NCBI RefSeq assembly: GCF_000282595.1
Contig: NZ_AKIZ01000016.1
Location: 744,001-808,000, forward strand
Direction: 5' to 3'
Origin: Phyllobacterium sp. YR531
GTDB lineage: Bacteria; Pseudomonadota; Alphaproteobacteria; Rhizobiales; Rhizobiaceae
DNA: 64,000 bases
Positions within the stretch are counted from its first letter, which is position 1. Each line of letters starts with the position of its first letter. Below the pieces are notes generated by a model. The model was given only the letters and a program-made list of their open reading frames with translations. It was not told the origin of the DNA and ran no database searches. Shown here in pieces: positions 21,832-41,224 of the stretch. Both the position numbers and the translations under genes were made by a program.

Positions 21832-22821
21832 CTACCAGCGTTGATGAACAAACGGCTTGATATCTTCCTGATAGATCTGCTCGATTTTTTCCATCGTTTC
21901 TACCGAAAGCGGTGCAAGCGCAGCAGCTTCCGCATTTGAGCGGGCTTGGGCGGGGTTACGCGCTCCTGGAATTGCAACAGTCACAGCGTCAAACATCAAT
22001 ATCCAACGCAAGGCAAACTTGGCCATGGTTGTGTCTCCCGACACCAGTGGCCGAACGCGCTCCACAGCCTCCAGACCTTTTTCGTAGGGCACACCGGAGA
22101 AGGTTTCACCAACGTCGAATGCTTCGCCATTGCGGTTAAAGAGACGATGATCATTCTCTGCAAATTTTGTATCCCGCTTGAACTTACCTGATAGCAATCC
22201 ACTCGCCAGAGGCACCCGCGCAATGATTGCCGTTTTGGTTTCTTCAGCCAGAGCAAAGAAGCGTTCTGCGGGACGCTGCCTGAATGCATTGAAGATTATC
22301 TGGACGCTGACAACGCCAGGATATTCGAGAGCTTTAAGAGCTTCCTCCACGCGCTCTACGCTCACGCCGTAATTGCGAATCTTACCGTGATCCACCAGCC
22401 GGTCCAGCCGTTCAAACACTTCTGGATGATAGTAAAGGTCGGTTGGCGGACAGTGAAGTTGAACCAGATCGAGTGTATCAGTCTGAAGATTTTTCAAACT
22501 GCGTTCAATATATGCTGTCAGGTTGTCCATGCTGTAGCCAGCCACGGTCTGCTCCGACAGCCTGCGTCCGGCTTTGGTCGCGATAAACGGCTTCTCGCCG
22601 CCCCGCTCCTTGATTACCTTCGCAATCAACTGCTCCGAATGACCATCGCCATACACATCAGCGGTATCGATAAATGTGACGCCACTATCCAGCGCCGCAT
22701 GAAGGGCAGCTAGCGCCTCTTCATCATTCACCTCGCCCCAAGCAGCGCCAATTGCCCATGCGCCAAAGCCAATCTCGCTAACTGTGCGGCCGGTACGGCC
22801 AAACTCTTTCGATCGCATCAT
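21832..22821 (-). CDS. Aldo/keto reductase
   Basis: An NAD(P)H-dependent (beta/alpha)8 oxidoreductase of 329 residues. The catalytic tetrad is visible: Asp and Tyr in FIDTADVYGDGHS, Lys in FIATKAGR and His in LVQLHCPP. The cofactor end is IPGARNPAQARSNAEAA. The opening MRSKEFGRTGRTVSEIGFGAW resembles the AKR11/YajO-like group. The substrate is unknown. It lies 96 bases downstream of the GMC oxidoreductase on the same strand, and that gap holds a FadR-type operator box, so it is probably part of the same regulated unit. GGGAGATC precedes the start. Confidence 0.92.
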   Translation of the reverse strand: MMRSKEFGRTGRTVSEIGFGAWAIGAAWGEVNDEEALAALHAALDSGVTFIDTADVYGDGHSEQLIAKVIKERGGEKPFIATKAGRRLSEQTVAGYSMDNLTAYIERSLKNLQTDTLDLVQLHCPPTDLYYHPEVFERLDRLVDHGKIRNYGVSVERVEEALKALEYPGVVSVQIIFNAFRQRPAERFFALAEETKTAIIARVPLASGLLSGKFKRDTKFAENDHRLFNRNGEAFDVGETFSGVPYEKGLEAVERVRPLVSGDTTMAKFALRWILMFDAVTVAIPGARNPAQARSNAEAAALAPLSVETMEKIEQIYQEDIKPFVHQRW

Positions 22822-22866
22822 GATCTCCCTGCAAATCCGCTGTTGCGATGTTCTACCAGATTTTAC

Positions 22867-22877
22867 TTGTACGACAA
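22867..22877. promoter_or_regulatory. FadR/FCD-GntR operator box 1
   Basis: TTGTACGACAA is a dyad that fits the FadR-subfamily consensus (tnGTm-N0-1-kACna). It is the exact reverse complement of the box at 24628. It lies 46 bases before the aldo/keto reductase start. The two FCD GntR genes at 31539 and 32340 are the obvious candidate binders. Confidence 0.6.
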
Positions 22878-22917
22878 CCCTGCAAGACGCCTGATCAGAA
22901 GATTTTGATTTCCGTTA

Positions 22918-24504
22918 TCAATTACTGGCGCGTCGGATAAGGTCGGCCGCCTTTTCGCCAATCATGACAGTTGCCGCATTGGTGTTCGATGAAATCAGCC
23001 GGGGCATTATCGAACTGTCGCAGACCCTCAACCCATCAATGCCGTGCACTCTTAGCTGCGGATCAACAACTGCCCCCTCTCCCGTACCCATCCTGCAAGT
23101 CCCGACGGGATGATAGGCAGATCGCGCATGTTGCCGGGCAAACGCCGCACATTCTGCACGTGTATTCACGCCATCACCCGGCAAATGTTCGCGTTTGATG
23201 AATGGCTCAAATGCTGGCTGTTTCAAAATGTCTCTGCTGATAATTATTCCATCCACCGCACGTTCCAGATCATAAGGCTCAGCAAATGCATTGGGATCAA
23301 TAATTGGCGCATCACGCGCATCTGAAGAACGCAATTTCACCGTACCGCGTGAGCGTGGTCGCAGATGATAGGAATTCAACGTGCAGCCATTACCACCCGG
23401 AACGGAGCCAATACCCTTTTCCACTCCGGCACCCGGCAGGAAGTGAAATTGAATATCAGGCGTTTTTTCTGCTTCATCGCCCCACCAGAAAGCACCGCCT
23501 TCAACAATATTCGAAGCAACTGGTCCTTTGCCGAACGCGGCATATTCGAGTCCCGCCAGAATTTGCCATCTCAGCTTCTTGTAACGATCAATGCCATAGG
23601 AACCCGACAGTTCCGCGATAACATCAACATCCATATGGTCTTGCAGATTCTGCCCGACACCGGGCAAATCATGCACTACATTGATCCCTAAGTTTTTAAG
23701 TTCATCTGCGGCGCCAATACCGGAAAGCATCAAAAGCTTTGGTGAGCCAATGGCACCGGACGTGAGTATCACCTCCCGATCGGCCGCTATGAAAACCTTT
23801 TTGCCCTTTTCGATAATTTCAACGCCGATGGCCCGATTTCCCTTAACAACGATCCGGTTTACGAACACACCCGTTCTCACGGTCAAGTTGCTGCGATCCA
23901 GAACCGGCTTCAAATATCCAACTGCCGTGCTACTTCGCCGCCCGTTCCTGGTTGTCGTTTGATAGAAACCGCTGCCTTGCTGTTTGCCACCATTGAAATC
24001 TGCAGTGAAAGGAATCCCGGCCTGCTGCGCTGCCTGAACAAAAGTACGCGTCAAAGGATGCGGATTGCCCGAGCTTACGCCAAGCGGGCCTGCATTCCCG
24101 TGATACTCATCAACCAGCGTGTCATTGCCCTCTGACCTCTTAAAATAGGGCTGCACATCCTTGAACGACCAACCTTCGCAGCCTTCTTCGTTGGCCCACG
24201 CATCATAATCTTCGGGACAGCCCCGCGTAAAAACCTGGGCATTGATGGAGCTTCCGCCCCCCAGCACCCGAGCTTGCGGGTAAACCATCGTCCTGCCGTC
24301 TATCTCGCTCCCCGCGGCGGTTTCATAGCCCCATATCAGTGGCCCCGCAGTCATTTTGAAAAACCCTACAGGCAAATGGATGAACATGTTGGTATCGCGA
24401 GGACCAGCCTCAAGCAGGGTAACGGTGGCGTTGGTATCCTCCGACAACCGCGCAGCAAGCACACAGCCTGCCGACCCGCCACCCACGATAATATAATCGG
24501 CCAT
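22918..24504 (-). CDS. GMC-family oxidoreductase (choline dehydrogenase-like)
   Basis: An FAD-dependent alcohol dehydrogenase of 528 residues. The FAD-binding motif is at the N-terminus (DYIIVGGGSAGCVLAARLSE, then VTLLEAGP). The GMC signatures follow (RVLGGGSSINAQVFTRGCPEDYDAW, and ILTSGAIGSPKLLMLSGIG). The C-terminal active-site region contains SAYHPVGTCRMG with the catalytic His and the later NTNAATVMIGEKAADLI. Family members oxidise choline, polyols, sugars or long alcohols, and resemblance to BetA does not fix the substrate. GGGAGGAA precedes the start. It is divergent from the ABC transporter operon, with an operator box between. Confidence 0.9.
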   Translation of the reverse strand: MADYIIVGGGSAGCVLAARLSEDTNATVTLLEAGPRDTNMFIHLPVGFFKMTAGPLIWGYETAAGSEIDGRTMVYPQARVLGGGSSINAQVFTRGCPEDYDAWANEEGCEGWSFKDVQPYFKRSEGNDTLVDEYHGNAGPLGVSSGNPHPLTRTFVQAAQQAGIPFTADFNGGKQQGSGFYQTTTRNGRRSSTAVGYLKPVLDRSNLTVRTGVFVNRIVVKGNRAIGVEIIEKGKKVFIAADREVILTSGAIGSPKLLMLSGIGAADELKNLGINVVHDLPGVGQNLQDHMDVDVIAELSGSYGIDRYKKLRWQILAGLEYAAFGKGPVASNIVEGGAFWWGDEAEKTPDIQFHFLPGAGVEKGIGSVPGGNGCTLNSYHLRPRSRGTVKLRSSDARDAPIIDPNAFAEPYDLERAVDGIIISRDILKQPAFEPFIKREHLPGDGVNTRAECAAFARQHARSAYHPVGTCRMGTGEGAVVDPQLRVHGIDGLRVCDSSIMPRLISSNTNAATVMIGEKAADLIRRASN

Positions 24505-24627
24505 TTAGTTCCTCCCATTCATGGAACAAGCCCGGCTGGAACTTCACGTCAGCCAGTAATTCGCACATACAATCTCAAGTCTCTTGTGAAGCGTCAAGAG
24601 AAAGGGTATGGTTATGGTGTTGAAGGG

Positions 24628-24638
24628 TTGTCGTACAA
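24628..24638. promoter_or_regulatory. FadR/FCD-GntR operator box 2
   Basis: TTGTCGTACAA lies in the divergent region between the GMC oxidoreductase (start 24504) and the sugar-type binding protein (start 24733). It is identical to the box at 22867 read on the other strand. The position suits repression of both directions. Confidence 0.65.
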
Positions 24639-24732
24639 ATAGAAGGTAAAGACTTGCGGCTTTTCTACACAATTCAAGCGTCTGACATGCCGATAATATA
24701 AGAACATTAATTTCCAGAGGGAGGAATTGGGA

Positions 24733-25815
24733 ATGAATGAACAGGATAAGTTTGCGCGTTTTGGCCGGGTGAACCGGCGAACATTGATGTTGGGTGCAAC
24801 TGCAGGACTTGCGGTGGCCGCACTGCCGAAACGTCTCTTTGCACAAACCGCACCAACGCTGGTGACGTCAATCAGATCGCTTTCCAACCCATATCACGCT
24901 GTCTGGAAACAGGGTGCCGAGGCCTATGCAAAATCCGCTGGCCTTGAGCACGTGACACTCGTCTCGGAAGGCAATAGCGAAAAGGGTATTGCCGACATCA
25001 AAGCAATGCTGGCAAAGACCGGCGGCAATATGGTGCTCAACTCGGACCCGAACGATACACCTGATGCACGGCCGATTGTTGAAGCCTGCGCGAAGGCTGG
25101 TGCCACTGTCGTTACCCAATGGAACAAGCCTGCCGATCTTCATCCGAAAGACTTTACGCCAAATTATGTCTCGCACATCGAGTTTGATGGCATTGCCAGC
25201 GGTAAGCAGATCGCCGAAATACTGTTCAAGGCCATTGGTGGCAGTGGCGGCATTGTTGCGCTAGGAGGCATGATCTCGACCACGGCAGCCATTGAACGCA
25301 AAAAGGGGCTCGATGAAGCGCTTGCGGCAAATCCGAATATCAAGCTTCTGGATTTCCAGGTTGCCAATTGGAAATCAACCGAAGCTTTCGACCTGACCAG
25401 CAATCTGCTCACACGCTTTGGCGACGACATCAAGGGTATCTGGGCAGCAAATGACGATATGGGCGTTGGTGCTCTTGAAGCATTGCGAGCCGAAGATCTG
25501 GCGGGGAAAGTTCCCATTGTTGGCGTAGATGGCATCAAGTCTGCCGTGGACGCAGTGCGGAAGGGTGAGTTTGCCTGCACGGTAACATCCGATCCCTTCT
25601 GGCAGGGCGGCATGGGCCTGGCCATCGGCTACAACGCGCACATCAAGAAGTTTGACCCTGCCAAGGAACCACCGGAACATCGCGAATTCTACGGCAAGGC
25701 GCTTCTTATCTCGAAAGAGAATGTCGAAGAATACTACAAAACCAACGTCGAATCCCAGCCAACGCTGGATTGGAACGACCTATGGGGCCGTGTGACTGGG
25801 GCAATCCGGACCTGA
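24733..25815 (+). CDS. Ribose-type ABC transporter substrate-binding protein
   Basis: A periplasmic binding protein of the CUT2 class (Peripla_BP_4), 360 residues. The N-terminus carries a twin-arginine-like signal (RVNRRTLMLGATAGLAVAALP, cut near LFAQ). The mature part opens TLVTSIRSLSNPYHAVWKQGAEAYA, typical of RbsB/XylF-like proteins. It also has the hinge regions GGMISTTAAIERKKGLDEAL and AANDDMGVGALEALR. The ligand is probably a sugar, polyol or related carbohydrate. The ATG at 24733 is preceded by GGGAGG; a TTG at 24727 lies too close to that site. It is the first gene of a four-gene transporter operon. Confidence 0.92.
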   Translation: MNEQDKFARFGRVNRRTLMLGATAGLAVAALPKRLFAQTAPTLVTSIRSLSNPYHAVWKQGAEAYAKSAGLEHVTLVSEGNSEKGIADIKAMLAKTGGNMVLNSDPNDTPDARPIVEACAKAGATVVTQWNKPADLHPKDFTPNYVSHIEFDGIASGKQIAEILFKAIGGSGGIVALGGMISTTAAIERKKGLDEALAANPNIKLLDFQVANWKSTEAFDLTSNLLTRFGDDIKGIWAANDDMGVGALEALRAEDLAGKVPIVGVDGIKSAVDAVRKGEFACTVTSDPFWQGGMGLAIGYNAHIKKFDPAKEPPEHREFYGKALLISKENVEEYYKTNVESQPTLDWNDLWGRVTGAIRT

Positions 25816-25827
25816 TCACCTGACACA

Positions 25828-25858
25828 GCAGCAGACGGGGCCATGACCTGTCTGCTGC
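25828..25858 (+). promoter_or_regulatory. Intercistronic stem-loop after the binding-protein gene
   Basis: Arms GCAGCAGACGGG (25828-25839) and CCTGTCTGCTGC (25847-25858) pair over 12 bp with one G-U, closing a 7-base loop. No T-run follows, so full termination is unlikely. Such loops behind binding-protein genes commonly protect the upstream mRNA so that more binding protein than permease is made. Confidence 0.6.
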
Positions 25859-25976
25859 AACACCGCATTGGCGAATACGGCCTCTGCACTTTTCCACTCT
25901 CGATGTTGGATATAGTCTGTTGTCTGTCAATTCTGAACTCGTGAAGTCCATCTCAACCACGGAGCAGAAGAACGCG

Positions 25977-26960
25977 ATGCAATCGTTCCTGACCCGATTA
26001 ACTAGCGGGAAGCGATTGCGCAAATGGCGCGCCTTTGCCCCTCTCGCAGTGCTGGTTGTTCTTTGTATCATCATTACAATAGCCAATCCGAACTTCATCG
26101 AACCCCGTAATCTCATACGGGTCGCCAATTCTGCTGCGGTACCACTGACCCTTGCCATGGGGATGACCTTTATCATTCTGCTCGGGAGCATTGATCTTTC
26201 GGTTGAAGGCGCAATGTCCGTCGCGGCGATGGTGGTAGTGCTACTTGCCGCAAATGACAGCAATGCGCATAATTATGGCTGGCTTGCCGTTCTGGCAGCC
26301 ATTGCTGCGAGCACCATGATCGGTCTATTAAGCGGCGTTCTCCAGACAGTCCTGCGCATACCATCCTTCATGACAACGCTTGGCGTCTGGTTCATAGGAC
26401 TTGGGCTTTCAGTTTATATGCTCGGTGGCTCAGCAGTTCGATTGATGGATGAAAGCATCCGGGGCCTCGCCCTCACCCGCTTTTTATCACTGCCTCTTGC
26501 AGTATGGGTTGCTCTCGCAGCATTCACCCTAGCCATTATCATTCAATATTATACGCGATTTGGCCGCCACGTTCTGGCTCTTGGCGGCGGTGAGGACATT
26601 GCAGAGTTTTCCGGAGTAAATCCCAGACGCGTACGTATTTATGCATTCGGCCTAGCGGGCTTCTTTTTCGGCGTAGCAGGAGTACTTGCCGCTGCACAGC
26701 TTGGCCAGTCCAACGCCACCATTGCAGACGGAAGATTATTTGCGGCCGTTACTGCGGTAGTCGTCGGGGGAACAGCTTTGACCGGCGGTGAAGGCGGCGT
26801 TCTGAACACACTTGTCGGGGTGCTTATCGTGACCATCCTCGCCAATGGAATGATCCTGCTTGGTATCTCGCCCTACATTCAGCAGACGGTACAAGGGTTG
26901 ATGATCATAGCCGCTGTGGCTCTGTCACTCGACCGCCTTAACCTGAAGATTGTGAAGTAA
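25977..26960 (+). CDS. Ribose-type ABC transporter permease 1
   Basis: An RbsC-like inner-membrane permease (BPD_transp_2), 327 residues from the ATG at 25977. That start has GGAG about 12 bases upstream; a TTG at 25920 is the other option. Signatures are GMTFIILLGSIDLSVEGAMSV near the first third and YTRFGRHVLALGGGEDIAEFSGVNPRRVRIYAF with the coupling loop. The last part, TAVVVGGTALTGGEGG, is typical of the family. It works with the second permease at 28481 as a heterodimer. Confidence 0.9.
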   Translation: MQSFLTRLTSGKRLRKWRAFAPLAVLVVLCIIITIANPNFIEPRNLIRVANSAAVPLTLAMGMTFIILLGSIDLSVEGAMSVAAMVVVLLAANDSNAHNYGWLAVLAAIAASTMIGLLSGVLQTVLRIPSFMTTLGVWFIGLGLSVYMLGGSAVRLMDESIRGLALTRFLSLPLAVWVALAAFTLAIIIQYYTRFGRHVLALGGGEDIAEFSGVNPRRVRIYAFGLAGFFFGVAGVLAAAQLGQSNATIADGRLFAAVTAVVVGGTALTGGEGGVLNTLVGVLIVTILANGMILLGISPYIQQTVQGLMIIAAVALSLDRLNLKIVK

Positions 26961-26964
26961 CGCC

Positions 26965-28470
26965 ATGCTCGCAGCCAAAGGAATAAGCAAATCATTCATC
27001 GCAGGCACATACGCCCTGAATAATGTCGATATCGAAATCAGGCCTAACGAAGTTGTCGGCCTTATCGGCGAGAACGGCGCTGGCAAATCGACGCTTATGC
27101 GCGTGCTTTCCGGGACACATCGACCCGATAGCGGAACGCTGACGCTGGACGGGCAACCACTGCGCCTGCGCAATTCAAGCGCTGCGGCTGCAAATGGCAT
27201 CGGCATGGTGTTTCAAGAGCAGTCACTGTTACTTAATCTCACCGTGGCGGAAAACATATATCTTGGACAGGAGCAGCAGTTCACACGGTTTGGTATAGTG
27301 AACTGGCGCGCCATGCATGAGGCTTCGCGTCGGCAGCTTGCCAAGATCGGCGTCGATATCGATGTCACCGCCCGCACCTCGGAATTGACATTCGCAGCCC
27401 GGCAGATGGTGGAGTTGGCAAAGGCACTAACCCTTGAAGAAAGCGTCGACCGTCCTCTCGTGATTTTGCTTGATGAGCCAACATCTGTGCTGAGTGCATC
27501 GGATATTGATGTGCTTTTCGCACGTGTCCGCTCGTTAAAATCCCGGGCGAGTTTTGTGTTTGTTTCTCATCGTCTTGACGAAGTTCTAAGGATTTCCGAT
27601 CGCGTTTACACAATGAAGGATGGCAAAGTCGTCGCAGAGCATGAAGCGGCAAAGGTTACAGGCCCGGAACTGCATGAGATCATGGTCGGGCGCGGCCTGC
27701 ATACGGAGTATTATAAGGAAGCGCAGCAAATCGCACCTCAATCCGAGGTCATGGTCGAAGCCAAGGATCTTGGCATCTCAGGATTCTTTCATAATGTGGA
27801 TTTCAGCATCCGAGCTGGCGAAGTCGTAGGCATTGCCGGCGTGGTTGGATCGGGCCGCGAGGAGTTGACGCGTGCAGTCGGCGGTTTCCTTCCACACACG
27901 CAAGGCACTTTAAAAATTGCGGGTGAAACGGTGCGGCTAACCTCACCCGGACAGGCCGTCCGCAAGAGCGTAGGCTATATCCCGCGTGAGCGCCGCGTCG
28001 AGGGCTTGGTGATGTTCCTTTCCATTGCCGAGAATATCACTCTCGCCGACCTCTCGCACGTGATGCGCAGGGGTGCCATCGATTATGGCAAGGAAAGACG
28101 TGTTGCAACTGACTGGATCAAGCGTCTGCGCATAAAGGCGCCAGGACCGGATACTGCCTGCCGTAAACTTAGCGGTGGCAACCAGCAAAAAGTCGTGCTG
28201 GCAAGATGGATGACGGCCGGATCACGCATCCTGATACTTGATCATCCCACACGCGGGCTCGATGTCGGCGCCAAGGAAGAGGTCTACGAATTTATCCGGC
28301 AACTTTCCGGGCAAGGCATTGCGATCTTGCTGCTCTCGGACACGTTGGAGGAAACTATAGGCCTCTCCCACACGGTGCTGGTTATGCGCGACGGCGAAAT
28401 TACGGCTCGGTTCGATGCGGCTGCAGGCAAAAAGCCGGATCAGGTCGAACTTGTAGCAGCGATGGTTTGA
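26965..28470 (+). CDS. Ribose-type ABC transporter ATPase with two ABC domains
   Basis: An RbsA/MglA-like ATPase of 501 residues with tandem nucleotide-binding domains. In the first, Walker A is GENGAGKSTLMRVLSG, the signature region is degenerate (LTFAARQMVELAKAL), and Walker B is LVILLDEPTSVLS. In the second, the Walker A position reads GVVGSGREELTRAVGG, degenerate as usual for this family, with signature LSGGNQQKVVLARWM and Walker B ILILDHPTRGLD, where the catalytic Glu is replaced by His. It energises sugar uptake. It starts 4 bases after the permease stop. Confidence 0.93.
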   Translation: MLAAKGISKSFIAGTYALNNVDIEIRPNEVVGLIGENGAGKSTLMRVLSGTHRPDSGTLTLDGQPLRLRNSSAAAANGIGMVFQEQSLLLNLTVAENIYLGQEQQFTRFGIVNWRAMHEASRRQLAKIGVDIDVTARTSELTFAARQMVELAKALTLEESVDRPLVILLDEPTSVLSASDIDVLFARVRSLKSRASFVFVSHRLDEVLRISDRVYTMKDGKVVAEHEAAKVTGPELHEIMVGRGLHTEYYKEAQQIAPQSEVMVEAKDLGISGFFHNVDFSIRAGEVVGIAGVVGSGREELTRAVGGFLPHTQGTLKIAGETVRLTSPGQAVRKSVGYIPRERRVEGLVMFLSIAENITLADLSHVMRRGAIDYGKERRVATDWIKRLRIKAPGPDTACRKLSGGNQQKVVLARWMTAGSRILILDHPTRGLDVGAKEEVYEFIRQLSGQGIAILLLSDTLEETIGLSHTVLVMRDGEITARFDAAAGKKPDQVELVAAMV

Positions 28471-28480
28471 GGAAGCAGCG

Positions 28481-29449
28481 ATGGAAAATATAACAAAGAT
28501 CAAATCGCTATTTGCAAACAGCTGGGTGCAAGGCGCAATCCCAACCGGCTTGCTTGTATTGCTCATCGTGATCGTCGAATTGGCTTCGCCCGGCTTCCTT
28601 ACGGGCGAGACTTTGGCGTTGCTGCTGTCAAACACCGCAGTGCTATTCATTCTGGCAACGGGCGTTACCTTCGTCATCCTGATCGGCGGCATTGATCTTT
28701 CGATTCAGGCCGTCGCCTCGCTGGCCAGCGTTATTCTCGCTCAACTTTTGCCTTCAATGGGTTTTGCGGCCTTTCCCGTTGCCATTCTTTCCGGGCTGGG
28801 TTTTGGCTTATTGAGCGGAATCGTACACGTCCGGCTACGAGTTCCATCATTCGTCGCCACGCTGGCAACCGGCGGCGTTGTTGCCGGTATCGCGCTGTGG
28901 ATTGCCAATGGCCGGGCCATCACGATTGAAGAAGCAGGCCGCGTCAATACGATCTGGATCAACGAGACTGTTGTCGGGGTGCCGGTCGTGGTTCTTCTTG
29001 CTATTGCCGTAGGCTTGATCAGCTTTCTGATCCTGCGATACACCCGCTTTGGTCGCTACAGCTTTGCCGTTGGAGCCGGCGAATCTGCTGCCTATGCAGC
29101 GGGTATCAACGTTGATCGTACGAAGGTCATCGCCTTCGCGATTTCTGGCACACTGGCTGCAATTGCTGGTGTCATTCTGGCATCACGCCTGTCCAGCGGT
29201 TCACCAAGCCTCGCCAACCAACTGCTCCTACCCGCCATTGCCGCAGTTATTGTCGGCGGAACGGCAATCACTGGCGGATTGGGTGGTGTCGGGCGAACTG
29301 CAGTCGGCGCACTGATCATTTCTATCGTCCGTATCGGAATGACATTTGTCGGCGTCAATATATTTGCTGAGAACGTGATTTTCGGTGCTGTTTTGATCGG
29401 TGCCGTCGCCATCACAATCGACCGCAGCAAGATCGCGATAATCAAATGA
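28481..29449 (+). CDS. Ribose-type ABC transporter permease 2
   Basis: A second RbsC-like permease, 322 residues, paralogous to the one at 25977. It has GVTFVILIGGIDLSIQAVASL, YTRFGRYSFAVGAGESAAYAAGINVDRTKVIAF and AVIVGGTAITGGLGG. Two different permease genes around one double ATPase indicate a heterodimeric channel. It begins 10 bases after the ATPase gene and ends the operon, facing glyoxalase I convergently. Confidence 0.92.
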   Translation: MENITKIKSLFANSWVQGAIPTGLLVLLIVIVELASPGFLTGETLALLLSNTAVLFILATGVTFVILIGGIDLSIQAVASLASVILAQLLPSMGFAAFPVAILSGLGFGLLSGIVHVRLRVPSFVATLATGGVVAGIALWIANGRAITIEEAGRVNTIWINETVVGVPVVVLLAIAVGLISFLILRYTRFGRYSFAVGAGESAAYAAGINVDRTKVIAFAISGTLAAIAGVILASRLSSGSPSLANQLLLPAIAAVIVGGTAITGGLGGVGRTAVGALIISIVRIGMTFVGVNIFAENVIFGAVLIGAVAITIDRSKIAIIK

Positions 29450-29480
29450 TGCAGCCTAACGCATTTTGTATTCATAACGT

Positions 29481-29517
29481 GGCGGGCCACATACCCCAAA
29501 GGCATACGCGGCCCGCC
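29481..29517. terminator. Stem-loop between converging permease and glyoxalase genes
   Basis: GGCGGGCC (29481-29488) pairs with GGCCCGCC (29510-29517) around a 21-base loop. T-runs are weak on both sides, so it may be a poor terminator or an mRNA-end protector. Confidence 0.45.
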
Positions 29518-29526
29518 GGAGCGCCA

Positions 29527-29940
29527 TTATTGCATTGTGTCGAGCCCAACAAGTTCGATCTTGTAGCCGTCAGGATCTTCCACAAAGGCAATATGTGTGG
29601 TTCCGTGCAACATAGGGCCGGGCTTGCGGGGAATGCTTGCCCCCTGTTTTTCAAGCGCATCGCAAACAGCGTAAATATCGTTCACTCCGAGAGCCAAGTG
29701 GCCAAATCCGCTGCCTATCTGATAGGGCTCTGCCTGATCCCAATTATGTGTAAGTTCCACCACTGTATTGTTCTCTTCCGGCCCATAGCCGACAAATGCC
29801 AGCGTAAACTTGCCACCTGGAAAATCCTCCTTGCGAAGAAGCTTCATTCCCAGAAGTTCGGTATAAAATTTGATCGACCTGTCCAGATCGAACACCCGGA
29901 TCATGGTGTGCATCATGCGAAATCCGTTGTCAGCACTCAT
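29527..29940 (-). CDS. gloA: Glyoxalase I (lactoylglutathione lyase)
   Basis: Turns the methylglyoxal-glutathione adduct into S-D-lactoylglutathione in the cytoplasm. The 137-residue protein has the metal ligands His11, Glu62, His81 and Glu129, with spacings nearly those of Escherichia coli GloA (51, 19 and 48 residues apart). Conserved strings are MMHTMIRVFDLDRSIKFYTELLGM and DPDGYKIELV. The ATG at 29940 has GGAGGA 8 bases before it; upstream frame is leader. It is divergent from the FAD-dependent 2-hydroxyacid dehydrogenase, which suggests linked use: lactoylglutathione to D-lactate to pyruvate. Confidence 0.94.
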   Translation of the reverse strand: MSADNGFRMMHTMIRVFDLDRSIKFYTELLGMKLLRKEDFPGGKFTLAFVGYGPEENNTVVELTHNWDQAEPYQIGSGFGHLALGVNDIYAVCDALEKQGASIPRKPGPMLHGTTHIAFVEDPDGYKIELVGLDTMQ

Positions 29941-30035
29941 CTTGCTTTTCCTCCTGTGAAGCATGGGTTTCATTGCGATTCTAGACATCCAACTGGCGGG
30001 AAAAACCTGCATCAGCCTGATGGTACAAATCTTAC

Positions 30036-30046
30036 TTGTATGATAA
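30036..30046. promoter_or_regulatory. Weak FadR-type box between gloA and the FAD dehydrogenase
   Basis: TTGTATGATAA matches the strong boxes at 22867 and 24628 except for two C-to-T changes. It lies in the divergent promoter region of gloA (29940) and the dehydrogenase (30097). It may be a lower-affinity site. Confidence 0.35.
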
Positions 30047-30096
30047 CACGGTAACAGTGATAGTTGTCTACAGAATTATGCCCGGAGACAGTTTTT

Positions 30097-31542
30097 ATGA
30101 ATGCCTTACCTCCCACCCGTAAAAAATCGCTTGCTGCACTTGCCAGCACGATGCCGGAGGGAACGTTACTCACGACTGATGAGGATATGGAGCGGTATTG
30201 CCGGGACTGGTCTGGCGACCATTTCGGAACGCCCCTTGCTGTTGCACGCCCGGAGAGCACCGCAGAAGTTTCCAGTTTGCTGCGATACTGTCACGAGAAC
30301 GGTATCGCTGTTGTCCCACAAGGTGGGCTTACTGGACTTGTCGGTGCAGCAGTAGCTGCGCCCGGGGGCAATGAACTCGTTGTCTCGCTTGAACGAATGA
30401 ACAAAATTCGTTCAATCAGTCCGATCGACTTTGCAATGATTGTTGAGGCCGGCTGCATTCTCGAAGATGCAAAACGAGCGGCGGAAGTAAGTGATTGTAT
30501 TTTGCCAATCACTTTTGGTGCCCAAGGCAGTTGCCGGATTGGTGGAAATGTTGCGACCAATGCAGGCGGTTTCAACGTACTGCGCTACGGTATGACCCGC
30601 GACTTGGTGCTCGGGCTTGAAGTCGTCCTGAGTGACGGACGGATATGGAACGGATTGAAAATACTGCGCAAAGACAATCGCGGTTATGACCTCAAGCAGA
30701 TGTTCATCGGCAGTGAAGGAACCTTGGGTATCATCACGGCAGCCTCGTTGAAGCTTTTCCCAAAACCGACACAGGTGGAGACAGCACTCGTTGGACTGCG
30801 CTCTGTCGAAGATGCAATGGCTCTTTATGCAAAGGCCCGGCGGGAATGCAGCGATCTTTTGACCGCTTTTGAACTCATCTTGCGCGTGGGTATCGATATT
30901 GCACTGAAGGCCCGTCCCGACTTTATCGATCCGCTTACAGAACCATACCCCGTTTACGTTCTAATCGAAGCCTCCGCCGGCGGAAGGATTGATTTGGCTG
31001 CTGTCTTGCAGGACTTCTTGCAAGATGCAGGCGATCTCATTCAGGATGGTGTTCTTGCAACCAGCCGCGCACAAGCGGACAGGTTGTGGTTGCTACGGGA
31101 AACACTTGTCGAATCCCAGGGCAATGGCGGGCGATATTTACGGACAGATGTTTCCGTACCGATATCAAAGCTTGCAGATTTCGTCACAGACACACTTGAA
31201 GCATTGGGAAAGCAATATCCGGAAGTGCTCGCCGTAACTTATGGGCATGTTGGCGACGGCAATCTCCATCTCAACGTCATTCCTCCGAAGGGAAGCAGCC
31301 CGGATACCATGGAAATACTGTTTCATCAGACCGAGAAAATTATCTTTGATGTTGTCGATCGCTATGGTGGCTCAATCAGCGCAGAACATGGTATCGGACG
31401 CGTCAAGCAACAGGCTTATCTCGATCGCGTAGATGAAGTGACACTGGACATTGCCAGCCGACTCAAGGACGCTTTCGATCCTGGACATATTCTCAGCAAT
31501 GGGCGCATTCTGCGGCCCGCTGCATTATCGGGTGATCGATGA
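30097..31542 (+). CDS. FAD-binding 2-hydroxyacid dehydrogenase (GlcD / D-lactate dehydrogenase-like)
   Basis: A flavoprotein of the VAO/PCMH family, 481 residues. The FAD domain runs from about residue 45 (HFGTPLAVARPESTAEVSSLL) through PQGGLTGLVGAA, TFGAQGSCRIGGNVATNAGG and MFIGSEGTLGIIT. The C-terminal cap has the catalytic and metal-site motifs YGHVGDGNLHLNV and SAEHGIGRVKQ. Such enzymes oxidise D-lactate, glycolate, D-2-hydroxyglutarate or sugar-derived D-2-hydroxyacids to 2-oxoacids. I placed the start at 30097 (MNALPPTRKK); an upstream TTG is less likely. It overlaps the following GntR gene by ATGA, so regulator and enzyme are co-translated. Confidence 0.9.
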   Translation: MNALPPTRKKSLAALASTMPEGTLLTTDEDMERYCRDWSGDHFGTPLAVARPESTAEVSSLLRYCHENGIAVVPQGGLTGLVGAAVAAPGGNELVVSLERMNKIRSISPIDFAMIVEAGCILEDAKRAAEVSDCILPITFGAQGSCRIGGNVATNAGGFNVLRYGMTRDLVLGLEVVLSDGRIWNGLKILRKDNRGYDLKQMFIGSEGTLGIITAASLKLFPKPTQVETALVGLRSVEDAMALYAKARRECSDLLTAFELILRVGIDIALKARPDFIDPLTEPYPVYVLIEASAGGRIDLAAVLQDFLQDAGDLIQDGVLATSRAQADRLWLLRETLVESQGNGGRYLRTDVSVPISKLADFVTDTLEALGKQYPEVLAVTYGHVGDGNLHLNVIPPKGSSPDTMEILFHQTEKIIFDVVDRYGGSISAEHGIGRVKQQAYLDRVDEVTLDIASRLKDAFDPGHILSNGRILRPAALSGDR

Positions 31543-32255
31543 CGCTCAAACTCGACAAAGTCAATCGCGGCCCTCATCTGTCAACGCTGGTGGCAAGCTC
31601 CATCTCGCGTGAAATTGTTGAGGGCCGGTTGAAAGCCGGTGACCAGCTACCGACCGAGCAAGCCCTGGCCTCGACTTTCGGCGTTAGCCGGAATGTAGTC
31701 AGGGAAGCCATTGCCCGATTGCGTTCAGAAGGTCGGATTTGGTCGCAACAGGGGCGCGGCGCTTTTGTTGCCGATGAAATGAATTCGTCGGTTCTCACTA
31801 TTGACTATGATGTGTCTCAACAAGGCAATGCTTTCAAAAGCCTTTTTGAATTGCGCAGTGCGCTAGAGGTCAGAGCCGCCGCTTTGGCAGCCAACCGGCG
31901 AACACAGCCTGATCTTGACGCCTTGAAACAGAGCCTCTCCCGCATGCAGGACGCTCCCTATGGTAGCGTTGCATGGCTTCAGGCTGATCTGGAATTTCAT
32001 AGGGCAATCGTTGCTGCAACCAGAAACAGCTATATGGAACAAGTTCTCAGGTTTGTAGCGGAGCGAGTACGAGAAAGCATTCTGGCTTCAGGCAATCAGC
32101 AAGGTTCCGATGAAATGGCCAGCACAACCCTTGGTGAACACAACCTTATTTATGCCGCCATTGCTGCAGGCGATGCTGAAGCTGCAGCGCGCGCCATGCA
32201 ACTGCATCTTGACGGTGCGGCCCAGCGAGTAGGGTTGCCTACTAACACTAACTAA
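31539..32255 (+). CDS. GntR-family regulator with FCD domain (1)
   Basis: A 238-residue transcription factor. The N-terminal winged helix is DQLPTEQALASTFGVSRNVVREAIARLRSEG (about residues 38-68). The C-terminal FCD all-helical ligand domain (about 95-230) keeps the metal-type residues in FELRSALEVRAAALAA, DLEFHRAIVAATRNS and EHNLIYAAIAAGD. FCD regulators usually repress operons for acids or sugars and release DNA on binding the substrate. The ATGA overlap with the FAD dehydrogenase ties it to that enzyme. It is a likely binder of the TTGT-N3-ACAA boxes. Confidence 0.93.
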   Translation: MTLKLDKVNRGPHLSTLVASSISREIVEGRLKAGDQLPTEQALASTFGVSRNVVREAIARLRSEGRIWSQQGRGAFVADEMNSSVLTIDYDVSQQGNAFKSLFELRSALEVRAAALAANRRTQPDLDALKQSLSRMQDAPYGSVAWLQADLEFHRAIVAATRNSYMEQVLRFVAERVRESILASGNQQGSDEMASTTLGEHNLIYAAIAAGDAEAAARAMQLHLDGAAQRVGLPTNTN

Positions 32256-32339
32256 TTGACCTCGCTTTGCTTTTTTTACTATCGTGTATTAGCAACATTA
32301 ATTAGCGTTTTTAATTTTTAATATAGGTCACAAACATAG

Positions 32340-33086
32340 ATGGCGGATAATGAAACGGCTGTTTTCAACACCATCCAGCAAACGCCCAACCTTCGTAGCG
32401 GTTTGGTGGATACGCTCATAGCCCAGATTGAATCTGGCGATCTGGCACCCGGACAAAGACTTCCTACCGAACAGGCGATCATGACCGCAACGGGCGTGAG
32501 CCGCACAGTCGTGCGAGAAGCTTTGGCTTCGTTGCGTGCCAAGGGATTGATCATCACCCGCCAAGGTCTAGGGGCATTTGTTGCCGATGATCCGCATCCT
32601 CGCACTTTCTCCATCATACCCACGGATTTGGAGTCGATTGATGAGGTCCTGCACATCATCGAATTACGTATGGGAATTGAAGTGGAGGCCGCAGGACTGG
32701 CTGCCCAGCGCCGTACAGATGAAGATCTTGAGCGAATGGCGGCCCGCATGACAGCGCTGGAGGCATCGATTCTTGATGGCGGCTCCGGAGTCGAAGAAGA
32801 TTTTGCTTTTCATCGCGCGATACTGGTCGCGACCCATAACTCCTATTACGCCCGGCTTTTCGACACGTTTGGCAGCGTCATGGTACCAAGAATGTGGACA
32901 AGGCTGGACACAATGGAGAACCGGGAACGAAAGAAATATATTGCACGTATGCAGCGTGAACATGGCCTCATCTTCAACGCCATTCACGCTGGCGAACCGA
33001 CTGCCGCACAAAGGGCCATGCGTATCCATCTGAACAAAAGTGCCGCGAGGTTTTTCGAACTCCGCGATCAGGCCATTCAACGCTGA
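32340..33086 (+). CDS. GntR-family regulator with FCD domain (2)
   Basis: A 248-residue paralogue of the regulator just upstream. The winged helix is QRLPTEQAIMTATGVSRTVVREALASLRAKG, and the FCD domain contains IIELRMGIEVEAAGLAAQRR, DFAFHRAILVATHNSYYARLF and EHGLIFNAIHAGE. The spacing of 84 bases and an A/T-rich gap suggest its own promoter. Two related regulators in tandem could answer different effectors or form mixed dimers. It overlaps the convergent kinase gene by 10 bases. Confidence 0.92.
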   Translation: MADNETAVFNTIQQTPNLRSGLVDTLIAQIESGDLAPGQRLPTEQAIMTATGVSRTVVREALASLRAKGLIITRQGLGAFVADDPHPRTFSIIPTDLESIDEVLHIIELRMGIEVEAAGLAAQRRTDEDLERMAARMTALEASILDGGSGVEEDFAFHRAILVATHNSYYARLFDTFGSVMVPRMWTRLDTMENRERKKYIARMQREHGLIFNAIHAGEPTAAQRAMRIHLNKSAARFFELRDQAIQR

Positions 33087-39197: not shown

Positions 39198-40202
39198 TCA
39201 ACCGTGAGCACCTGTTTCACTATCAAGATGCGCCATCTGGGCTTCTGCATAACGCGTGCCTGAAGCAGCGCCTTTAGGAACTGCCGTTTCAATCGCTGAT
39301 AAGTCATCGGCGCTTAATGTAATATCCAAAGCACCCAGTGACTCTGTCAGTCGATTTCTGCGTCTCGCGCCAATGACCGGGATGATATCCTTACCCTTTG
39401 CGGATACCCAAGCGATGGCAATTTGCGCCACTGAAACACCTTTGCTCTCAGCAATCTTTTTGAGAGCCTCGACTAAAGCCAGATTTTTGTCGACATTTTC
39501 ACCCTGAAACCGCGGGCTATGCGTCCGGAAATCCGTAGGTGCAACAGCATTCTTCTGCCAGTGTCCGCTGATGAGGCCACGTGAAAGCACGCCATAAGCC
39601 GTGATGGCGATACCAAGGTCGCGACAGGTCTCAAGAATACCATCCTCAATGCCACGCGAAATCAAAGAATATTCGATCTGCAGATCGACAATAGGATGAA
39701 CTGCTGCGGCGCGCCTTATCGTCTCTGAACCAACTTCTGATAATCCGATATGCTTGACAAAACCCGCCTTCACCATATCCGCAATCGCACCGATGGTTTC
39801 CTCAATCGGTACGTTCGGATCGAGACGTGCAGGGCGATAGACATCAATATAGTCCACACCGAGCCGTTGCAGCGAGTAGGCAAGCGATGTCTTCACCGCT
39901 TCCGGCCTGGCATTGAAGCCGATCCAACCAGCACCCGGATCACGCAACGCACCAAACTTCACGCTCAGGACAGCATCCTCGCGCCTTCTGTCCTTCAATG
40001 CCTCGGCAATCAGCATTTCATTGTGGCCCATGCCGTAAAAATCACCGGTATCCAGCAAATTAATGCCTGCATCGAGCGCGGCGTGAACTGTGGCAATGCT
40101 TTCCGCACGATCCGATGGTCCATACATGCCCGACATGCCCATACAACCCAGACCAAGCTCAGAGACCTGTGGGCCGGTCGCACCAAGTTGACGATATTGC
40201 AT
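39198..40202 (-). CDS. Aldo/keto reductase (AKR13/YakC-like)
   Basis: An NADPH-dependent oxidoreductase of 334 residues. It begins MQYRQLGATGPQVSELGLGCMGMSGMYG, typical of the AKR13 group. Catalytic Asp and Tyr are in LLDTGDFYGMGHNE and Lys in LSVKFGALRDPG. At the usual His site (…VDYIDVYRPARLDP) the residue is Arg in this sequence, a change also seen in AKR13 relatives where the motif reads YRPAR. GGAG lies 7 bases before the ATG at 40202. It is divergent from a LysR gene, probably its regulator. Confidence 0.9.
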   Translation of the reverse strand: MQYRQLGATGPQVSELGLGCMGMSGMYGPSDRAESIATVHAALDAGINLLDTGDFYGMGHNEMLIAEALKDRRREDAVLSVKFGALRDPGAGWIGFNARPEAVKTSLAYSLQRLGVDYIDVYRPARLDPNVPIEETIGAIADMVKAGFVKHIGLSEVGSETIRRAAAVHPIVDLQIEYSLISRGIEDGILETCRDLGIAITAYGVLSRGLISGHWQKNAVAPTDFRTHSPRFQGENVDKNLALVEALKKIAESKGVSVAQIAIAWVSAKGKDIIPVIGARRRNRLTESLGALDITLSADDLSAIETAVPKGAASGTRYAEAQMAHLDSETGAHG

Positions 40203-40265
40203 TGTGGAACTCCATAAAGTTTTCTTCGAGACAAACTGTCGAGCGCCACTGTAAAAGATTTTTGT

Positions 40266-40295
40266 TTGTGCGATAATCCATTGAAATACGCACAA
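40266..40295. promoter_or_regulatory. Inverted repeat in the AKR/LysR divergent promoter region
   Basis: TTGTGCG (40266-40272) and CGCACAA (40289-40295) form a perfect dyad with a 16-base spacer, 21 bases before the LysR start. The form and place suit a LysR-type activation site. Confidence 0.5.
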
Positions 40296-40315
40296 CTTGT
40301 TCGTAAAATCGTACA

Positions 40316-41224
40316 ATGACCGATCCTGATCTCTCAGATCTCAGCGCCTTGGTTGCTGTCGCAGAAGCACGTAGTTTTCGCGCAGCAGCGAAAACGCGTG
40401 GAGTGTCTGCATCATCCCTTAGCGACGCGATACGCCGCCTGGAAGAGCGGCTTGATGTTCGCCTGTTGAACAGAACGACGCGAAGCGTCACCCCTACAGA
40501 GGCCTGCGTTCAATTGCTGGACCGCCTGACTCCGGCAATGGGCGAGATTGCGGGTGCGTTGGATGACTTGAACAGTTTTCGCGATAGCCCGACAGGAACG
40601 CTCAAGCTCAATGTACCAATCATTGTTGCACGCAGTATCTTGCCACCTATCGTCAACCGGTTTCTGCTGGCTCATCCGGGAATCACGCTCGACATCCTTG
40701 CCAGCGACACGTTCATAGACGTTCTGGCAGCCGGCTTTGATGCTGGCATTCGTTACGATGAAAGCATTGAGCGGGATATGATTGCCATTCCTATTGGACC
40801 TCGGTCTCAGCGCTTTGTTCTGGCAGCAGCGCCATCATATCTTGCGACACGCGAAGCACCTGAACATCCGCGCGACATTATAGATCACGCATGTATTCGT
40901 CATCGTTTTGCCAGCGGAACTTCGCCCGCCTGGGAGTTCGAAAAAAATGGCAAAGCAGTAAAAATTACACCGAAAGGGCCGCTACTGGCTTCGTCTCTTG
41001 AACTTGAATTAGGTGCAGCGATTGCTGGCTTGGGCCTGATATATTCGTTCGAAGAAACCATTGAACCTGCGTTCAAAAGTGGCGATCTCGTTCCGGTTAT
41101 GCAACCCTGGTGGTTGAGTTTTACCGGGCCAAGGCTTTACTATCCAAGTCGCAACCACATGCCGGTACCGCTTCGTGCATTTGTTGATTTTATCAAGAGC
41201 GAGGCAACACGCTCTCTTGCATAG
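40316..41224 (+). CDS. LysR-family transcriptional regulator
   Basis: A 302-residue regulator of the AaeR/PgrR-like branch. The helix-turn-helix is ARSFRAAAKTRGVSASSLSDAIRRLEERLDVRLL split over residues about 17-50, followed by the linker helix and an effector domain (LKLNVPIIVARSILPPIVNRFL, then ILASDTFIDVLAAGFDAGIRYDE). It is divergent from the aldo/keto reductase, the classic layout of LysR with its target. Effector unknown. Confidence 0.92.
   Translation: MTDPDLSDLSALVAVAEARSFRAAAKTRGVSASSLSDAIRRLEERLDVRLLNRTTRSVTPTEACVQLLDRLTPAMGEIAGALDDLNSFRDSPTGTLKLNVPIIVARSILPPIVNRFLLAHPGITLDILASDTFIDVLAAGFDAGIRYDESIERDMIAIPIGPRSQRFVLAAAPSYLATREAPEHPRDIIDHACIRHRFASGTSPAWEFEKNGKAVKITPKGPLLASSLELELGAAIAGLGLIYSFEETIEPAFKSGDLVPVMQPWWLSFTGPRLYYPSRNHMPVPLRAFVDFIKSEATRSLA

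Follow-up and report, generated by a model that had tools for sequence, protein, structure and literature searches.

The window analyzed here, a 64,000-nucleotide stretch of the genome of the plant-associated Phyllobacterium sp. YR531, carries an 11-kb locus in which a sugar-type ABC importer lies among oxidoreductase genes, a glyoxalase I gene, and two GntR-type regulator genes. Its features, in order of position, are as follows.

21832..22821, minus strand: aldo/keto reductase (AKR; PF00248, 235 bits)
22867..22877, plus strand: box 1, TTGTACGACAA, upstream of the AKR gene and one of three sites in the locus
22918..24504, minus strand: GMC family oxidoreductase (PF00732, PF05199)
24628..24638, minus strand: box 2, TTGTACGACAA, between the divergent GMC gene and importer
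24733..25815, plus strand: Tat-type CUT2 substrate-binding protein (open reading frame listed from 24727)
25920..26960, plus strand: ABC permease 1 (PF02653)
26965..28470, plus strand: sugar-type ABC ATPase (PF00005 in two stretches, two ABC domains)
28481..29449, plus strand: ABC permease 2 (PF02653)
29527..30012, minus strand: glyoxalase I, gloA (TIGR00068, 159 bits, cut-off 120)
30016..30044, plus strand: predicted promoter, CCTGAT-N17-TATGAT, with its -10 inside box 3
30036..30046, plus strand: box 3, TTGTATGATAA, between the divergent gloA and dehydrogenase genes
30064..31542, plus strand: GlcD/D2HGDH-like FAD D-2-hydroxyacid dehydrogenase (FOX; PF01565, PF02913)
31539..32255, plus strand: FCD-GntR regulator 1, the predicted box-binding regulator (PF00392, PF07729, over cut-off)
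about 32276..32304, plus strand: TTGCT-N19-AGCAA element upstream of regulator 2
32340..33086, plus strand: FCD-GntR regulator 2, probably a relic and without a link to the boxes (PF00392, PF07729)

The gene families named in the first-pass annotation match those found by domain analysis, and the ATGA by which the start of regulator 1 overlaps the stop of the dehydrogenase gene lies at 31539-31542. Start codons accompanied by ribosome-site-like letters indicate that translation probably begins at 24733 in the binding-protein gene, near 29940 in gloA, and at 30097 in the dehydrogenase gene. Regulators 1 and 2 are 35% identical, lie 84 bp apart, and are both assigned to the FCD subfamily by winged-helix GntR and FCD domains over the curated cut-off. 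The metal/ligand motifs of FCD domains occupy known positions (D-x3-H, H, H), and the D-x-x-F-H, E-H, and H-L motifs are present in both window GntR genes and in the commonest variants among 49 regulator-1 and 19 regulator-2 sequences.

A dyad had been claimed at 22867 with its reverse complement at 24628, and both are perfect boxes at those coordinates; the former lies in the 96-nt gap from the aldo/keto reductase start to the GMC stop. The refined strict box, the 11-letter TTGTAYGAYAA, has only five perfect sites in the 4,997,302 bases of the genome (two for the reversed control), and three of the five fall within this 11-kb locus. The genome-wide search suggested in the first-pass annotation used the looser dyad TTGT-N3-ACAA, and here the outcome was divided, as the strict box is concentrated at the locus while the loose dyad shows no enrichment in the genome (52 copies versus 80 for the reversed control). 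Four copies of the loose dyad occur in the 64-kb window, where 1.05 are expected, and two of them (7045 and 30311) are within open reading frames; it is weak evidence. Nor is the box enriched in the window when up to two mismatches are allowed (18 found versus 12.6 expected). The two remaining perfect sites of the genome lie elsewhere. One (C13:118045) precedes another aldo/keto reductase, which has close orthologues (88 to 94% identical) in 8 of the 11 Phyllobacterium genomes asked, and it was rejected as a regulon member, there being no perfect box at the corresponding places of the orthologues. Near the fifth site (C22:257140), none of the frames makes a plausible partner.

Conservation of the boxes was assessed in the best 80 of 286 loci from genome contigs, plus plasmid records. 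Among these loci the recurring order is a GMC gene divergent from binding-protein, permease, ATPase, and permease genes, with gloA divergent from the FAD dehydrogenase and regulator 1 genes, and it is found in Phyllobacterium, Mesorhizobium, Rhizobium, Paracoccus, and a few others. With the window included and loci that duplicate or overlap others (among L043, L044, L126-L129, and L067) omitted, the gap between the GMC and binding-protein genes holds a perfect box in 45 of 47 loci (two mismatches in L087 and L088), and the gap between gloA and the dehydrogenase gene holds one in 46 of 47 (one mismatch in L085). The first-pass annotation, which would have counted the absence of boxes from relatives keeping the genes against its own proposal, is supported on this point by these two counts. 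It had also called the site at 30036 a weaker copy; the site is indeed there, but being perfect in 46 of 47 loci it is as constant as the other boxes and not weaker in evolutionary terms. Of 20 Phyllobacterium genomes searched, own included, five have a close orthologue of the binding protein, and these cassette-bearing genomes contain 32 strict boxes, 19 of them within or next to the cassette; the remaining 15 genomes contain 29 altogether. That the boxes are just accidental occurrences of a loose dyad, as the lack of enrichment of TTGT-N3-ACAA in the genome and of the two-mismatch box in the window might suggest, has almost no likelihood in our view, since the strict box is specific and conserved in related loci, and the comparative counts contradict such a reading.

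The box co-occurs with regulator 1. In a set of 89 loci, from which one too short upstream and seven with cut flanks (among the seven, L067 has a perfect box) were set apart, a perfect box precedes the binding-protein gene in 45 of the 49 loci with regulator 1 and in none of the 32 without it, where every best box has at least two mismatches. The four exceptions are L087, L088, L090, and L102, the last of which has regulator 1 at 59% and is counted among the 49. This co-occurrence is partly confounded by descent because most of the 32 loci that lack regulator 1 belong to more distant relatives. Of the 397 genomes of the order, 8, own included, have regulator 1 at an E value of 1e-70; among the seven others, the f16 and f50 genomes carry the strict box at the same gene kinds, and the two f27 genomes carry the variant TTGTCGTATAA in the gap between gloA and regulator 1. 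Among the best named NCBIfam matches of regulator 1 are LldR (100 bits against 311) and GlcC (96 against 301), both below cut-off, and also NanR and PdhR. The LldR, NanR, GlcC, and PdhR regulators respond mostly to small acids.

A predicted promoter places box 3 where a bound protein would matter. The -10 hexamer TATGAT lies inside the box, and CTTGAT or CTTGAA stands 17 bp before it in 42 of 47 loci; the -35-like hexamer of the window, CCTGAT, is one base off CTTGAT. A consensus scan left the promoter at 30016..30044 unlisted. Judged by the known rhizobial consensus, the 17-bp spacing fits a sigma-70-type promoter with its -10 in box 3, and therefore a box-bound protein would block it. Regulator 1, by covering the predicted -10 and excluding RNA polymerase, would also control its own synthesis, since its gene lies downstream of the dehydrogenase gene with overlapping codons.

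The first-pass annotation had placed both GntR proteins on the boxes. That the two act jointly, or that regulator 2 is the true regulator, appears unlikely, even though the two are neighbors sharing 35% identity and Paracoccus ravus (L085) has a comparable tandem. Perfect boxes precede regulator 2 in 0 of 26 loci and its divergent partner HIB in 0 of 25 (one-mismatch boxes occur before one regulator-2 gene, in L201, and one HIB gene, in L087; the upstream counts for the reductase, regulator 2, and HIB omit genes with fewer than 300 bases upstream). In every compared locus where regulator 1 and the box-bearing dehydrogenase gene are both observed, they lie side by side. The gap before regulator 2 holds a different 29-bp element, TTGCT-N19-AGC(A/T)A, in four Phyllobacterium relatives, some Rhizobium, two f16 loci, and the window. 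Regulator 2 was accordingly rejected as the box regulator, having no perfect box in front and an element of its own in part of the loci, and the single regulator that fits the boxes, by predicted binding, is regulator 1.

The element of regulator 2 is itself unevenly distributed. Among the 19 gaps between HIB and regulator 2, it is present in L043, L044, and L084 and absent from the other 16, all Mesorhizobium, and no single palindrome common to all 19 gaps was found. Three further Phyllobacterium, L196, and L200 also have it before regulator 2, and L080 has it in front of HIB, at the edge of the locus. In six loci (L037/L044, L068, L080, L084, L090, and L120), it occurs at positions that do not adjoin regulator 2.

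In relatives, regulator 2 sits among nickel-racemase (lar) genes. Between regulators 1 and 2, Phyllobacterium zundukense has an SDR gene, larB, larE, larC, and a HIB-type dehydrogenase gene, and its locus then continues with larA and a branched-chain-type ABC importer. A fourth box, about 13.5 kb from the third, lies 40 to 52 bp before the importer-larA operon in all four cassette-bearing Phyllobacterium relatives, P. zundukense and three others (the larA of the fourth relative was read in L126). The link to 2-hydroxyacids proposed in the first-pass annotation is thus strengthened, the same box preceding the importer-larA operon in these four relatives. A family search of the YR531 genome found no member of the LarA family, and the HIB and lactonase proteins of relatives are matched there at best with 31 to 33% and 29% identity, respectively. 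Regulator 2 is likely a relic of this longer locus. Since regulator 2 and its element remain, loss from the window locus is the simplest reading, the alternative being gain in the relatives; an empty-site comparison found no neighbor gene in the four loci compared.

The compound brought in is likely a polyol or a sugar. The binding protein has a Peripla_BP_4 domain and the type I binding-protein fold and belongs with the CUT2 type, while its score against the ribose-binding protein RbsB stays below cut-off (PRK10653, 114 bits against 337). It is 27% identical to the CUT2 binding proteins of Mycobacterium smegmatis (4rsm, 4rs3, and 5hko), whose ligands we take to be polyols; at this identity, and with Z values of the M. 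smegmatis proteins within about 1 to 2 of those of ribose binders, the likeness is only a lean toward polyols. A literature search on the ligand of 2rjo found the entry name in no paper.

Motifs with generally known catalytic roles are kept in the variants shown among the GMC (53 sequences), GloA (47 sequences), dehydrogenase (48 sequences), and AKR (18 sequences) proteins. The GMC enzyme scores below cut-off against choline dehydrogenase BetA models (TIGR01810, 509 bits against 732; PRK02106, 588 against 605), and the AKR far below that of the methylglyoxal reductase YdjG model (96 against 550). Glyoxalase I binds its metal through His/Glu/His/Glu, and the window GloA and the variants shown for 47 sequences have these ligands; scores against narrower models are below cut-off (PRK10291, 150 bits against 246; NF050074, 109 against 165). 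No gloB was seen within the cassette. The dehydrogenase is nearest to 3pm9 (362 bits) and human D2HGDH (319 bits), with 154 bits for D-lactate dehydrogenase and 244 against a cut-off of 568 for glycolate oxidase GlcD (TIGR00387). Human D2HGDH contacts its substrate through Arg386, Thr390, and Lys401, a numbering for which a literature search found no paper. At these places the dehydrogenase has R, V, and R in 48 of 48 sequences, so the Arg is kept and the Thr and Lys are changed with respect to a D-2-hydroxyglutarate dehydrogenase; the Arg at the Lys401 place fits a polar or acidic substrate tail rather than lactate.

Whether the AKR belongs to the set is best judged from its movements. Its gene is next to GMC in Phyllobacterium; in part of Mesorhizobium it follows regulator 2, and in Rhizobium leguminosarum it adjoins a different transporter. 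Of 23 orthologues examined, 19 have a perfect box within 300 bp upstream (one more has a box with one mismatch, and L102, L202, and L203 have none within that distance). That the box appears to accompany the gene to new positions is the best evidence for membership.

The set could also serve two functions under one regulator, with the importer and GMC in one and gloA and the dehydrogenase in general aldehyde detoxification. Regulator 1 and gloA, with the reductase, occur in L202 and L203, where the stretch read has no importer, GMC, or dehydrogenase gene, so the importer is not obligatory; conversely, many loci among the best 80 of 286 and the plasmid records have the importer without gloA, dehydrogenase, or regulator 1. 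Where both halves occur, however, the same box precedes both in nearly every locus, and we find a division into two functions rather improbable. Several open reading frames picked in L202, L099, and L087 have no family match and are probably in wrong frames.

We consider it probable that the genes of the locus form a catabolic set with three TTGTAYGAYAA boxes, to which regulator 1 is predicted to bind, likely as a repressor until an acid of the pathway is present. Of the single regulon proposed earlier, the joining of importer, GMC, AKR, gloA, and GlcD-like dehydrogenase stands, whereas only regulator 1, and not both GntR proteins, co-occurs with the boxes. In this gene set, regulator 1 would repress the import and oxidation of a sugar-like compound, with the pathway acid as the release signal. 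The ABC importer would take up the polyol or sugar, whose oxidation state the GMC flavoprotein and the AKR would alter. Glyoxalase I would convert a 2-oxoaldehyde, an intermediate or by-product, to the glutathione thioester of a D-2-hydroxyacid, which the FAD enzyme would oxidize to a 2-oxoacid. In relatives, the nickel-pincer racemase LarA behind the fourth box would convert the L-acid to the D-acid, and regulator 2 would be left over from that longer lar locus.

As a special case of this reading, the D-2-hydroxyacid might be D-lactate from a methyl-terminated (6-deoxy) sugar route, which is conceivable though doubtful. A hydrolase of R. leguminosarum is close to 2,4-didehydro-3-deoxy-L-rhamnonate hydrolase (414 bits against 500), and a lactonase of P. 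zundukense is of the L-fuconolactonase family (204 against 400); both scores are below cut-off and both genes are absent from the window, and the dehydrogenase is nearer to D2HGDH than to D-lactate dehydrogenase. By alignment, the selectivity positions of P. zundukense LarA are F, M, W, and Q. The available text of PMC11770544 gives F, F, W, and E/Q for lactate racemases and notes that Gln may accompany a glycerate preference, while that of PMC11851776 gives Leu, Met, Trp, and Gln for a short-chain racemase. As the LarA residues resemble these short-chain types, which speaks for D-lactate, the acid of the longer loci is likely small, and the dehydrogenase may favor an acid of greater polarity. 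The LarA residues and the dehydrogenase Arg pull in different directions. A sulfosugar route was considered because HIB is nearest to sulfolactaldehyde reductase; the score is below cut-off (181 bits against 348), and nothing else sulfo-specific was seen.

A more specific version places glyoxalase I on the pathway, with GMC oxidizing the imported polyol or sugar to the 2-oxoaldehyde, GloA isomerizing this to the D-2-hydroxyacid thioester, the FAD enzyme oxidizing the acid, and the racemase rescuing the other hand in relatives. We hold this to be a long shot, and if true, it would be a new glutathione-dependent route of sugar oxidation in rhizobia. More generally, should the chemistry of the catabolic gene set prove right, it would account for the glyoxalase and D-2-hydroxyacid dehydrogenase that many root- and nodule-associated bacteria keep beside a sugar importer and would tie the nickel racemase to the use of plant compounds. 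The box, likely regulator, and gene set are now delimited clearly enough to be put to the test, and the comparison suggests how a regulator gene can outlast its neighbors.

The gene set is well supported, its proposed control is plausible, and its parts are of known kinds; the open-licence literature searched held no description of their combination. For the box letters, titles and abstract openings pointed to no relevant paper, and the available text of PMC3973600 names GMC genes and describes no such locus.

Several known systems resemble the locus in part. In the E. coli lldPRD (LldR) and glcDEF (GlcC) systems, an FCD-GntR regulator is encoded with a flavin 2-hydroxyacid dehydrogenase, a pairing also seen in the window; unlike in those systems, the window box is common to a sugar-type ABC importer, GMC, glyoxalase I, and AKR, and the gene order differs. 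The glyoxalase pathway consists of GloA, GloB, and D-lactate dehydrogenase. The window likewise has gloA and a D-2-hydroxyacid dehydrogenase on one divergent promoter region, but it lacks gloB in the cassette, ties in a sugar importer, and has a dehydrogenase nearer to D2HGDH. Non-phosphorylating routes are known for L-fucose and L-rhamnose, and the relatives carry similar lactonase, SDR, and, in Rhizobium, hydrolase genes, whereas these are absent from the window and score below curated cut-offs. Finally, LarABCE is described as a nickel-pincer lactate racemase system in the available text of PMC7583248 and PMC11770544. The longer Phyllobacterium and Rhizobium loci resemble it in having larA and larBEC, the Phyllobacterium larA operon bearing the same box; on the other side, the window genome has no larA, and the boxes extend to importers and oxidoreductases as well.

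Between box 2, the perfect box at 24628, and the GMC oxidoreductase gene lies a conserved block, in which most columns are at least 90% conserved in the column profiles of 45 loci and the window sequence carries an inverted repeat, CTCTTG-N8-CAAGAG. This block may be the GMC promoter. The block and a further reductase gene of the window are as follows.

24569-24600, minus-strand pattern CTCTTGACG....CAAG.GACTTGAGAT.GT, conserved block in the gap that separates GMC from box 2
39198-40316, additional aldo/keto reductase gene, oriented divergently to a gene that looks LysR-type

This second reductase is 26% identical to the cassette reductase, and a box with two mismatches is found in its region at 40266. 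Perfect boxes also stand upstream of a different aldo/keto reductase in Rhizobium (L037 at 5719 and L081 at 6718), where a glycerate kinase gene adjoins the reductase. Mesorhizobium (L036 near 1253 and similar loci) has a second locus for a sugar importer, which includes kdgD and a further aldo/keto reductase; a one-mismatch box, TTATATGACAA, lies ∼190 bp upstream of that reductase. Locus L197 has two perfect boxes (16006 and 16126) spaced 120 bp apart, placed between the reductase and a branched-chain-type transporter.

Binding proteins 61 to 71% identical to that of the window are encoded on contigs of metagenome-assembled genomes (MAGs) that carry the labels Verrucomicrobiota, Anaerolineae, and Aggregatilineales (L089, L092, L094, L111, and L121-L124), and regulator 1, the predicted box-binding FCD-GntR protein, was not found in the stretch covered of these contigs. 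These relatives reflect either cross-phylum spread or binning error. The distant Paracoccus ravus (L085) has regulators 1 and 2 in the same tandem as the window, and the shortened arrangement, which lacks the lar genes lying between the two regulators in P. zundukense, is therefore present more than once.
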